From Tetracentron sinense (taxonomy: Eukaryota > Streptophyta > Magnoliopsida > Trochodendrales > Trochodendraceae), in contig CM026574.1 of NCBI GenBank assembly GCA_015143295.1, positions 12,836,938 through 12,900,937 of the forward strand: a stretch of DNA of 64,000 bases. The letters run 5' to 3'. The position numbers were made by a program, and so were the translations under genes. The notes under the pieces are model-generated. The model did not search any database, was not told where the DNA came from, and saw nothing but the letters and a program-made list of their open reading frames with translations. Of this stretch, positions 3,617 through 6,485 are shown piece after piece; within the stretch, counting starts at the first letter, position 1, and every line of letters begins with the position of its first letter.

Positions 3617-3640
3617 AGAAATTCTCCGATGAGAATTTCT
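3617..3640. repeat. Perfect hairpin, 10-bp arms, 4-nt loop
   Basis: AGAAATTCTC at 3617-3626 and GAGAATTTCT at 3631-3640 are exact inverses around CGAT. It sits just left of the ketoacyl-CoA synthase fragment. Confidence 0.9.
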
Positions 3641-3683
3641 ACCTCGATCTATGTATATGCAAGTGATTTTTTCAGTCAATGCA

Positions 3684-4020
3684 CTACTCAGATTTCAAAG
3701 GCAAAATTCATCGATCTGGCTAGAACATCCAGCAACTTCGATGATGCCGCGATTCAGTTTCAGCATCGGGTCCTCAAGAACTCTGGCATTGGGGACGAGA
3801 CCTACTTGCCAAGATCGGTGTTCCTTCCCGGACGGCACAAAGTAACCCTCAAGGATGGGCGAGAAGAGGCAGCTATGGTCATGTTTGGTGCTGTGGATGA
3901 CCTCCTTGCCACCACTGGAGTGCGGCTCAATGACATTAAGATCCTTATCGTGAACTGCAGCATTCTCAACACCACACCATCGCTCTCGGCGATGGTTATA
4001 AATCATTACAAGCTTCGGCA
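3684..4020 (+). pseudogene. Captured 3-ketoacyl-CoA synthase (KCS/FAE1) fragment
   Basis: About 112 codons read without a stop. They match the N-terminal part of the FAE1_CUT1_RppA condensing-enzyme domain: F-I-D-L-A-R, [36 protein letters not shown] and [15 protein letters not shown]. Whole enzymes are near 500 residues and elongate very-long-chain fatty acids at the ER. Similarity stops right after K-L-R, before the Cys-His-Asn catalytic residues, so the fragment cannot be active. The open frame continues to 4072 with unrelated residues. Good preservation suggests a recent capture or a low mutation load. Confidence 0.85.
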
Positions 4021-4072
4021 TGAAGGTGTGATTAGTCACTTATCACTGTTAATTTTAATTTTTGGAAACTAA

Positions 4073-4440
4073 TCTTAGGACTTATATTTACTTTCAAGAT
4101 GAACTTACTTATAGGAGTGTCATTGGTGCATATGATGGCAGAAAAGCATCGTTAGAGTATCTTTATCTAGGCAACCGTTAATTAGGACCTCAAGACAAAT
4201 TCCTCTTACCTTAAATTCTAACTAGGACGCTTAAACTCCTGAATAAGCAGTAAGAAAGGATAGTAAAGTTGACTATAACCATAATACAGCGCATTATTTG
4301 TGTCTTAGAAAAATATTACAGATGAACAACGTCGAATCTGCATTTTCATGTTTCCAAATTGTAGGTTACCCATACTAGGATCCTTGATGAGTCTTCTTGT
4401 TTGATTTACTTGTTTCGAGGTTTTCTAGAGATGGTTAGCC
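4073..4440. other. Unassigned cargo-zone sequence
   Basis: Non-coding sequence between the ketoacyl-CoA synthase fragment and the first hairpin of the next group. No family was recognised. Confidence 0.5.
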
Positions 4441-4467
4441 TTCTGCTGATAATTGTCTTCAGCAGAA
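4441..4467. repeat. Perfect hairpin, 9-bp arms, 9-nt loop
   Basis: TTCTGCTGA (4441-4449) and TCAGCAGAA (4459-4467) are exact inverses. Confidence 0.85.
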
Positions 4468-4806
4468 TACCTTAATTATAATGACTAATTTCTATAGCCT
4501 TAAAAGGGTTATTAAAAAATAATAGTACAAAACAAGAAGAGAATATGTTTTATTGAGTAGTGCTCTCATCATCCGCATCTCCAAAGCTGTTTGTATATAG
4601 GTGACCAGCTGTAGAGGGATTGTAGAAAGCTTTATGTATATAGGTGACCAACTATATAGGAGTTGGAGGACATTATTACATATCTTATATGCTATAGGTA
4701 CCACAACAAACCTCAGTACAATGCAATAAGCAAACCAAACCAGGGAAGCTAAATATAACAGTAGGAACTATTGGTTTGAGCTCTATGTTAATTTCTATTT
4801 GCGAAC
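4468..4806. other. Unassigned cargo-zone sequence
   Basis: This AT-rich stretch holds a local repeat of TATAGGTGACCA (near 4597 and 4639). A 21-bp piece (about 4559-4579) is the inverse of 6361-6381. No coding match was recognised. Confidence 0.5.
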
Positions 4807-4895
4807 CAAAAACCCAAGCCTCTACCTTTAAAAAACTGATTGAGATGATGTAACCTTGGAATGTAGTAAAACTCGGTCTGAGGCTTGGGTTTTTG
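4807..4895. repeat. Inverted repeat, 16-bp arms, 57-nt spacer
   Basis: CAAAAACCCAAGCCTC at 4807-4822 is the exact inverse of GAGGCTTGGGTTTTTG at 4880-4895. The spacer contains AAAAAACTGATTGAGATGATG, which recurs at about 6238-6258. Confidence 0.9.
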
Positions 4896-5019
4896 TTGAC
4901 ATAGACATAGATATAGGTTAATTCCTTTGGCGTCTCTTTTCTTAGGTACATTGTACAGACAACTTCCATATAGCTAGCTTTATCACAATCAGCTGGTCAT
5001 TTTCGCATATAAATCATTA

Positions 5020-5238
5020 ACATATAAAAGGGTGGTTTGGGTTGGATTCTGAGGATGAGATTATATCTGAGATGGGGTTCTTCGCGGAGAGCTGTAAAGG
5101 GGTTTTGTGGAGCAGCTCAGAGAAGGGTTTTTGTAGGGTTTTAGGAGTAGAGAAGAGGGGATTTTGATATGGGAATGGAGAGAGAAGATGGGGTTTTTCT
5201 ATAGAAGATTGGAAAGAAGTGATATTGATAGTAGCCAT
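5020..5238 (-). pseudogene. Captured first exon of a probable plastid-targeted protein
   Basis: The minus-strand ATG at 5238 opens about 73 codons rich in Ser, Thr, Pro and Leu with few acidic residues, the usual make-up of a chloroplast transit peptide. Upstream on that strand is a CT-rich leader with a run of CCATCT units (about 5281-5315), typical of a plant 5' UTR. The frame ends without a recognisable mature domain. I do not recognise the parent gene. It could also be a chance open frame, but leader plus transit-like start argue for a captured 5' gene end. Confidence 0.45.
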
Positions 5239-5417
5239 GGAATTTAGGAGAAGACGGATTGAAGAAGAGAAACTGAGAAAGAGATGGAGATGGAGATGGA
5301 GATGGAGAGAACAAAAGAAGTGAAAAATCTTTTTCACTTCTTTAATATATACATTGCACGATGACGTCATTTTCGCATGTATTAATCAGCTTCTCGACAT
5401 GTTTTATTGACTTGAAT

Positions 5418-5456
5418 GATTGAGATATCCGACCAACTTAATCGGATATCTCAATC
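5418..5456. repeat. Perfect hairpin, 15-bp arms, 9-nt loop
   Basis: GATTGAGATATCCGA (5418-5432) and TCGGATATCTCAATC (5442-5456) are exact inverses around CCAACTTAA. Confidence 0.95.
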
Positions 5457-5480
5457 AGCTATTATATCAAAAGTGACAAT

Positions 5481-5517
5481 AGCTGCAGGTAATGGTTATA
5501 AATCATTACCTGCAGCT
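5481..5517. repeat. Perfect hairpin, 14-bp arms, 9-nt loop
   Basis: AGCTGCAGGTAATG (5481-5494) and CATTACCTGCAGCT (5504-5517) are exact inverses. The 18 bases ATGGTTATAAATCATTAC at 5492-5509 are identical to 3992-4009 of the ketoacyl-CoA synthase fragment. Confidence 0.95.
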
Positions 5518-5593
5518 ACTTGTAGAGAGGGAATGGGATAACTCTGCTGTTAGGCGACCGCAAGATGGCTGATCTGGGCATGTAGGGGTACTG

Positions 5594-5665
5594 TTTTGGG
5601 GACTGTTACATGGGTTGTTTGGGACTGTTACAGTGGCTGTTTGGGACTGTTACAGGGGCTGTAAT
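5594..5665. repeat. Short tandem repeat, about 21-bp unit
   Basis: Units of the form TTTGGGACTGTTACAGTGGCTG repeat about three times with small changes. They create the glycine/valine-rich open frame at 5610-5792, which I do not treat as a gene. Confidence 0.75.
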
Positions 5666-5856
5666 GGGGTTGTTTTGGACCTGTGTTGGGGTTTGTGGCT
5701 GCTGTTTTTGGGTTGTGAAAAGAAGGGGAAGTGGTTGCTATTTTGAATATGAACGGAAGCTGAACAGGGTGGCCACTTTGAAGTGGTTTTGAGAGTTGAA
5801 CAGGTAAAAAAAATTTACCCTCTCTACCTTACGCCTAACAGCTATTTACCCCGTCT

Positions 5857-5899
5857 CTGCTAAAGGTTGAGCTTACCGACCAAGCTCAACCTTTAGCAG
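5857..5899. repeat. Perfect hairpin, 18-bp arms, 7-nt loop
   Basis: CTGCTAAAGGTTGAGCTT (5857-5874) and AAGCTCAACCTTTAGCAG (5882-5899) are exact inverses around ACCGACC. This is the longest perfect arm pair in the cargo zone. Confidence 0.95.
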
Positions 5900-5912
5900 T
5901 GAAAGAAGTGAT

Positions 5913-5934
5913 GAAGGCCTCTTTTGAGGCCTTC
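5913..5934. repeat. Perfect hairpin, 9-bp arms, 4-nt loop
   Basis: GAAGGCCTC (5913-5921) and GAGGCCTTC (5926-5934) flank TTTT. Confidence 0.9.
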
Positions 5935-6485
5935 CTTATGGTATTGCTTGCTGGGGGAGGTGGTCGGATCTTCTGCAAGTCAGACCAAGAGTTGATTGTA
6001 TTAGGGCAGACCCTAATACAATCCTGAGGGTTTTGTTCCATAGGAATGATCCCACGGCAAATCAGTTCCTGAAGAGGACATTTCAATTAGCAAAGAGGAA
6101 ATGAAGAAGATGATTTACTTGTGTAGATGAAGTGATAAGAGCCTATATGTGATGTAACATGGTATTCACTGGAATAGCACTATCAAAAGTTCCATTGTCA
6201 TTGACTTTAGCTTCCCCTAATTGTACCAAAGAAAGAGAAAAAACTGATTGAGATGATGAATCAATATTTATTTTAATTTTTGAAGTAAGGTAGAGACTAG
6301 CTTACATAATAGAAATTAACATAATATTTTATCACAATCAGCTGGTTGACGTGTTTCTCCGATGCGGATGATGAGAGCACTACCCCTAATTGGGGCTGAC
6401 ATGAGGAATTTGGAACTTTTGGCCCTTTCTATTTTTTTCCTTTCTTGGTCTGGATGAATTATGGTTGTGATTAGTGAAGAAAAGG
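5935..6485. other. Cargo-zone filler with one more hairpin
   Basis: A perfect hairpin lies at 5994-6023 (GATTGTATTAGGG / CCCTAATACAATC, 4-nt loop). A 66-codon minus-strand open frame (6086-5886) spans it. The frame has a Pro-rich stretch and matches no family I know. 6328-6346 repeats 4979-4997 exactly (19 bp) and 6348-6364 repeats 3217-3233 exactly (17 bp). Confidence 0.7.

Follow-up and report, generated by a model that had tools for sequence, protein, structure and literature searches.

What kind of process leaves a cluster of perfect short hairpins inside the gene cargo of a transposon? The question is raised by a 64,000-nucleotide stretch of the genome of Tetracentron sinense (GenBank assembly GCA_015143295.1, contig CM026574.1, positions 12,836,938 to 12,900,937 of the forward strand), which is referred to here as the window and whose first letter is position 1. 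Within it, a complete CACTA (En/Spm-type) element carries fragments of host genes, and among these fragments lie eight small hairpins and one wider inverted pair. Analysis of the locus points to an answer in which the hairpins are mostly, and with high probability, scars that DNA repair synthesis left in the CACTA cargo.

The density of the hairpins is far above that expected by chance. The initial annotation had described seven stem-loops and a wider inverted pair, and all of these are present, with perfect arms in the stem-loops and the wide pair at 4807-4822/4880-4895. Five of the spans given for the stem-loops were exact, and two (5418-5456 and 5481-5517) were one base short at each end, the true limits being 5417-5457 and 5480-5518; an eighth small hairpin, at 5314-5343, had been overlooked. 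Hairpins were counted with loops of 3-10 nt, dropping arms that were AT-only or simple in sequence and merging overlapping hits, and the control was a set of 500 dinucleotide shuffles of 3600-6030. In this interval, eight hairpins have arms of at least 9 bp (shuffle mean 0.076, maximum 2), five have arms of at least 11 bp (mean 0.002, maximum 1), and five have arms of at least 13 bp (mean 0, maximum 0), which upholds the expectation that arms of this last length should occur far less than once by chance.

Clustering is also evident at the scale of the whole window, which has 37 hairpins with arms of at least 9 bp, eight of them inside the 2.43 kb of 3600-6030, and nine with arms of at least 13 bp, five of them inside the same interval. 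Nine points were placed randomly in 64 kb 20,000 times; no trial had five of them within 710 bp, and 0.09% had five within 2,431 bp. For 37 points, eight fell within 2,431 bp in 0.9%. The test that the initial annotation had set for rejecting its own proposal was an equal hairpin density in the other non-coding parts of the element, and the counts by region are not equal: two in 759-2400 (one with an arm of at least 13 bp, inside subterminal repeats), two with arms of at least 9 bp in 6031-8400 (none of at least 13 bp), none with arms of at least 9 bp in 8400-14000 or 14000-17500, and one in 17500-18254. Shorter arms are less distinctive, and the 2.43-kb windows that begin at 29801 and at 30001 hold seven hairpins with arms of at least 9 bp, none of at least 13 bp; the strong form of the clustering claim therefore rests on arms of at least 13 bp. 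The hairpins of this second group (29801-32430; seven, with arms of 9-11 bp, in 2.43 kb) include several derived from ATAGATTAA-like units. A scan of the whole window for imperfect hairpins (score at least 11, loops of 3-60 nt), which filters simple-sequence arms and did not include 5314-5343 among its hits, gave five hits in 2400-6560, all of them perfect hairpins that were already known. That only perfect hairpins are found there suggests that the scars are of the same age, or else are all young.

The carrier of the cargo occupies 759-18254 on the minus strand, a length of 17.5 kb. Its terminal inverted repeats (TIRs; 759-784 and 18229-18254) are 88% complementary and begin with CACTA at both ends, and the sequence CACTACAAAA occurs exactly only at 759 (+) and 18245 (−). 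A 3-bp target site duplication, ATG, is present on both flanks (756-758 and 18255-18257). On the minus strand, the open reading frame (ORF) at 11614-13866 encodes a tnp2-type transposase with Pfam matches to Transpos_assoc (E-value 2.5e-19), Transposase_21 (PF02992; 1.3e-101), and DUF4218 (4.3e-27). The element thus has each of the features that define the CACTA (En/Spm) type: CACTA-starting TIRs, a 3-bp target site duplication, and a tnp2-type transposase. The cargo is located downstream of the transposase genes, on the side facing 759, at about 2.4-6.55 kb.

Pfam comparisons took in 33 of the 108 stop-free ORFs of at least 28 amino acids in 2400-7260, and the families found above the cut-off were PATROL1 (in two ORFs), 3-ketoacyl-CoA synthase (KCS), and RVT_3. 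The KCS fragment (3671-4018, plus strand, about 116 codons) matches PF08392 with an E-value of 2.9e-35 (residues 34-153), and four chains of that name in the PDB with E-values from 3.5e-24 to 9.5e-24 (residues 33/36 to 149/150). Depending on the aligner, its right end lies between 4018 (PDB alignments) and 4033 (Pfam). The 15 nt from 4019 (4019-4033) repeat 3110-3124 exactly in inverted orientation, a copy that sits only probably at the right junction of KCS. PATROL1 is represented by two plus-strand fragments that match different parts of PF25761. Fragment 1 (5872-5997) covers profile positions 269-310 with 57.2 bits, and its full ORF scores 57.9 bits (1e-15), with the match drawn from position 265. 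Fragment 2 (6003-6098) is in a different frame and covers positions 387-418 with 50.3 bits (2.2e-13; 2.8e-13 within the ORF 5928-6101). In the PDB, no match was found for the first piece and one chance-level chain (E-value 0.65) for the second; EXO70, first considered as the identity of the PATROL1 piece, was dropped after the match to PF25761. One mark of Pack-CACTA-style capture is the presence of host gene fragments inside an element, and KCS and PATROL1 are fragments of this type.

Homology to these captured genes makes it possible to say, for three hairpins, which arm is native and which is a copy. The first of them (5994-6023, minus strand; 13 bp, 4-nt loop) spans a deletion in PATROL1. 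Here, the homology stops at 5997 (profile position 310) and restarts at 6003 (position 387) in the other frame, so that 76 profile positions are missing, and extending the peptide ends past 5997 and 6003 made the match no longer. The sole stretch outside PATROL1 homology is GTATT (5998-6002), and the order across the junction is native sequence ending in GATT, then GTATT, then the native AGGGCAGACCCTAATACAATC. The native strand holds a 4-bp seed (AGGG/CCCT) around the 4-nt loop CAGA, and the copy is GATTGTATT, 9 nt long and an inverted copy of AATACAATC. Its last four bases (GATT when read on top) coincide with those that end fragment 1, a 4-nt overlap. The bottom-strand end of fragment 2 would thus have folded at the seed, copied nine bases, and joined fragment 1 through GATT; the fit of seed, loop, and copy suggests that fragment 2 acted as the primer strand. 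The 4-nt overlap is likely but not proved, because the outermost codons carry few bits, and the limits could move by a codon or two.

The hairpin at 5857-5899 (minus strand; 18 bp, 7-nt loop) is located at the other edge of fragment 1. The PATROL1 score rises as the first codon of the peptide is moved leftwards, from 46.6 bits (5899) to 53.4 (5881), 57.2 (5872), and 57.7 (5860); codons from 5899 back to 5872 add 0.7-1.7 bits each, and the next four, to 5860, add 0.5 together. Because the score climbs little beyond 5872, PATROL1 supports a native origin for the right arm, the loop, and the three left-arm bases next to the loop. It lends no such support to the remaining fifteen left-arm bases, which repeat the right arm exactly in inverted form. 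A snap-back event here would have used a seed of 3 bp and a loop of 7 nt to give the outer 15 bases as the copy. These two hairpins are the ones for which homology indicates a rearrangement junction: 5994-6023 at the join of profile positions 310 and 387, and 5857-5899 where homology support fades.

The third case (5480-5518, minus strand; 15 bp, 9-nt loop) is built around a shard of KCS. Its positions 5492-5509 are 18 nt of the KCS fragment (3992-4009), with flanks that diverge on both sides, and this shard forms the loop and the inner right arm. Since the shard supplies these parts, the inverted copy is taken to be the portion of the left arm beyond ATG. The left side of the hairpin is repeated, with one mismatch, at 3249-3269, which suggests that this piece was copied after the hairpin had formed. 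Snap-back synthesis is recognized by an inverted copy of adjacent sequence that starts from a short seed, and such a copy is present in all three homology-polarized hairpins. Furthermore, all three extend the bottom strand, toward lower coordinates.

The hairpins are embedded in a wider patchwork. The tract from 2603 to 6551 consists of gene fragments and short internal copies in both orientations, at distances of up to 3.9 kb, and the 21-nt direct repeat TTTTTAGTTGGATTCAATTAT is found at both of its edges (2603-2623 and 6531-6551). The longest exact copied piece is 23 nt (4557-4579, inverted at 6361-6383). A comparison of 2400-7250 with itself gave 27 internal ungapped matches with scores of at least 13, compared with a mean of 1.3 and a maximum of 5 in 40 shuffles; these comprise four hairpin arms, four tandem repeats, one palindrome, and 18 others. 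The wide pair at 4807-4895 is outside the 27, as simple-sequence pieces were filtered in this comparison. Among classes of match, only dispersed short copies (isolated matches of no more than 35 nt, more than 200 nt apart) set the cargo apart, with 16 compared with 0-6 in 22 equally large windows taken from position 7251 onwards. Copied pieces of other kinds outnumber hairpins in the cargo.

The tract 6238-6551 is a recurrent partner: among the 18 internal copies that are neither hairpins nor tandem repeats, 10 have one member there. A concentration of this degree arose in 0.73% of a scan test, and is suggestive only, as the interval was picked after the fact and the pairs are not independent. 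Within this tract, 6328-6383 is fully covered by abutting pieces that also occur at five other places: 4979-4997, 3265-3284 (with one mismatch), 3217-3233, and, inverted, 3018-3033 and 4557-4579. Complex filler DNA is characterized by a junction tract of several short templated pieces, and both the excess of matches over shuffles (27 compared with 1.3) and that of dispersed copies over other windows (16 compared with 0-6) are of this kind; judged from its sequence, the patchwork has the anatomy of complex filler.

The best reading of the cargo is that it is complex filler DNA, generated by microhomology-primed snap-back and template-switching synthesis during the repair of a break or gap. A broken 3' end would fold back and pair over about 3-4 bp around a loop of 4-9 nt, copy 9-15 nt of its own strand, release, and become joined to a further piece, once through an overlap of 4 nt. 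The patchwork would then grow as such rounds were repeated with templates both close by and far off, namely scraps of PATROL1 and KCS, LINE-like sequences, and the product of the repair. One process presumably made all of the pieces. A single repair chain running from right to left would fit the three shared polarities together with the use of 6238-6551 as a template; this is not proved, and several rounds over generations fit too. The responsible enzyme may be an end-joining polymerase of the DNA polymerase theta (Pol theta) type. In this respect, Pol theta is reported to prime stem-loop synthesis in vitro from two terminal base pairs (PMC11292364), and templated insertions are described as typical of Pol theta repair in Arabidopsis (PMC10923293). 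In yeast, breaks are reported to acquire very short fold-back insertions by a route that needs Pol delta plus non-homologous end joining (NHEJ) or alternative end joining (Alt-EJ) (PMC11724301).

The remaining hairpins are less readily assigned. At 3617-3640 (10 bp, 4-nt loop), between a weak CCD97-like scrap and the KCS fragment, polarity is not set by homology, and a fold-back scar is probable; its loop and seed, TTCTCCGATGAGA (3622-3634), recur at 3224-3236. The hairpin at 5417-5457 (16 bp, 9-nt loop) has partner pieces at 4836-4846 and 6244-6254, both of them inverted copies of 5448-5458, which takes in part of its right arm and one further base. These shared pieces fit the fold-back model without polarizing either hairpin. 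The hairpin at 4441-4467 (9 bp, 9-nt loop) has no partner piece of at least 10 nt in 2400-7250 and could be a chance hairpin, and that at 5314-5343 (13 bp with a 4-nt loop, or 14 bp with a 2-nt loop) is without a telling partner piece. The wide pair at 4807-4895 has 16-bp arms and a 57-nt spacer that includes a 21-nt copy of 6238-6258.

Several points weigh against this account. One of the eight small hairpins (5913-5934, plus strand; 9 bp, 4-nt loop) is native coding sequence and no scar, as it spans the KASFEAF codons of PATROL1 and lies in 5899-5997, a stretch that alone scores 46.6 bits. No native source was identified for 3617, 4441, 5314, 5417, or the wide pair, and 2400-3600 is patchwork with copied pieces yet has no hairpins. 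The mechanism that had been put forward, fold-back template switching, is thus well supported by captured-gene homology at three of the eight hairpins (5480-5518, 5857-5899, and 5994-6023), and the accompanying suggestion of a copying scar at each junction was too broad. Boundary support is thin, with 1.0 bit from the first codon of fragment 2 and about 2.5 bits from the last two of fragment 1; the HMMER match of the full fragment 1 ORF starts at 5860 (profile position 265, 57.9 bits), within the left arm of 5857-5899, and the PF08392 match runs to 4033, beyond the proposed KCS junction at 4018. Native strands were assigned from protein profiles and from a copy within the cargo rather than from the plant's own genes. 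The raw number of matches is not specific to the cargo (27, compared with 1-26 in 22 other windows), and exact matches of at least 12 nt number 32, compared with 6-25 in windows from 7201 on. From the literature, the requirement of yeast fold-backs for Pol delta plus NHEJ or Alt-EJ also counts here, as does the statement that yeast Mre11 processes loops of up to about 8 nt and inhibits fold-backs (both PMC11724301), and a supplementary-figure title in a Pol theta study calls snap-back a minor part of deletion-insertions (PMC5068794).

Other origins for the hairpins can be weighed against the same evidence. Mutations by template switching during replication, which complete quasi-palindromes, might have struck the cargo after capture, independently of joining. 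Such switches are reported to make perfect hairpins, with a preference for 4-nt loops (PMC8794818), and the loops here are of 4-9 nt. However, the hairpin at 5994-6023 coincides with the 76-position deletion in PATROL1 and homology support fades at 5857-5899, whereas a simple switch within a gene piece would leave homology on both sides; moreover, no hairpin with arms of at least 9 bp is found in 8400-17500. We consider this origin improbable. Less probable again is passive carriage, in which the hairpins already existed in the host genes that were captured, or in their introns or untranslated regions. This is what happened at 5913-5934, and it is possible for 3617, 4441, 5314, and 5417, but PATROL1 homology covers neither the outer part of the left arm at 5857-5899 nor the GTATT of 5994-6023, and 5480-5518 leaves its KCS copy on both sides of the 18-nt shard.

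The two other explanations considered are both very improbable. The local clustering, and nothing else, favours an array designed for regulation or RNA processing (terminators, small-RNA precursors, or protein sites); no common arm motif was seen by eye, a scan of 759-18254 found no Rfam family at gathering score, and the captured genes account for three of the hairpins. The ends or footprints of small nested transposons would be just as hard to reconcile with the data. Plant Helitrons terminate in short hairpins and have CTRRT as an end motif, but the 18 nt next to each of the eight hairpins contain no CTRRT, whichever side or strand is read, and every hairpin differs in sequence. Repair synthesis remains the account that we favour.

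Several known systems come close to this account. Complex filler DNA at plant double-strand break junctions, for example in maize p2/p1, is likewise described as a mosaic of short nearby copies at an illegitimate junction (PMC2686159); the sizes quoted there are 1-131 bp, compared with about 3.9 kb here, with gene fragments and several hairpins. Pol theta snap-back and yeast fold-backs, as reported, share the tiny seed, the short inverted copy, and the combination of deletion with insertion (PMC11292364, PMC11724301, PMC5068794). They differ in that the present locus would hold several scars at one natural site within a transposon, that its enzyme is only presumed, and that the loop given for yeast is 41 nt. 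Replication template switches also give perfect short-loop hairpins (PMC8794818), although two of those described here meet a deletion or the end of homology. For animal Pack-TIR elements, the proposed origin is gap filling or fork switching that uses microhomology, and the likeness to this element lies in the uptake of host sequence into a TIR element by microhomology template switching (PMC8277862); that model is based on animals, its main text does not use the word 'hairpin', and its application to plant Pack-MULEs is left open there. Transduplication by Pack-CACTA elements, reviewed as a result of the aberrant excision of neighbouring elements, also yields CACTA elements with captured genomic sequence, but as reviewed it does not alone predict fold-back copies at cargo junctions (PMC13317346).

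Among the open-access papers listed in literature searches, none had a title or abstract opening that describes fold-back hairpins where cargo is joined in CACTA elements or in TIR elements of other types. The chemistry is already known, and what is new is its readable, repeated use inside the gene cargo of a CACTA element. How TIR transposons take up gene fragments is still debated, and the origin of Pack-MULEs has been termed perplexing (PMC8277862). Should scars of this type prove to lie at cargo junctions, sequence alone would in many elements reveal the route of repair, its polarity, and the order in which pieces were captured, and the route could be tested in polymerase theta mutants. 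A more tentative proposal, which we hold as possible rather than probable, is that plant CACTA cargo is built by serial end-joining synthesis, in which one 3' end passes through many templates and hairpins record the polarity and order of capture, here in the right-to-left direction and with repeated use of the 6.24-6.55-kb tract as a template. If this is true, cargo-junction hairpins would be a readable signature of serial end-joining capture across plant genomes. The short inverted repeats of the scars might also feed small-RNA silencing or give rise to new hairpin RNAs. An exact scan of viral contigs for 5994-6023 gave no matches, as expected for plant DNA.

Several further features of the cargo and the window were recorded. 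The RVT_3 scrap (2422-2619; 8.5e-05, above the Pfam cut-off) and matches below the cut-off to DUF4283 and zf-CCHC_4 (6802-7193, minus strand) flank the patchwork on opposite sides. They look like the two ends of one long interspersed nuclear element (LINE) without its middle, and the 21-nt direct repeat lies near the inner edges of both. Scores below the cut-off were 0.0045 for DUF4283, 0.013 for CCD97-like_C (0.00095 for a 24-amino-acid piece), 0.074 for DUF2933, and 0.37 for zf-CCHC_4, with Kazal_1 at 0.013 on the zf-CCHC_4 ORF and three others at 0.1-0.15.

Elsewhere in the window, the hairpin unit GGTGATAACCGG occurs at three dispersed sites (28403-28437, 57285-57313, and 57604-57638); its copies are a small repeat family with no relation to the cargo hairpins. 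Two elements with inverted arms, at 42350-42495 and 53092-53164, have a common arm around GTTAGGT(G/A)GCAC and, by eye, probably belong to one family of miniature inverted-repeat transposable elements. Nested palindromes of TGGCGGTAAT (51949-52019) and repeated TTAACC.TGGTTAA hairpins (50530-50575 and 63588-63754) may be subterminal repeats of other transposons. The ORF at 29273-29638 resembles, by eye, a CACTA transposase-associated domain, and so the remains of another CACTA element may lie nearby. A long ORF at 25279-28930 appears by eye to encode a leucine-rich-repeat receptor kinase, the last part of which is preceded by a 146-bp inverted-repeat element (28207-28352). Finally, a tandem repeat with a unit of about 145 bp is present in about three copies at 22283-22718.

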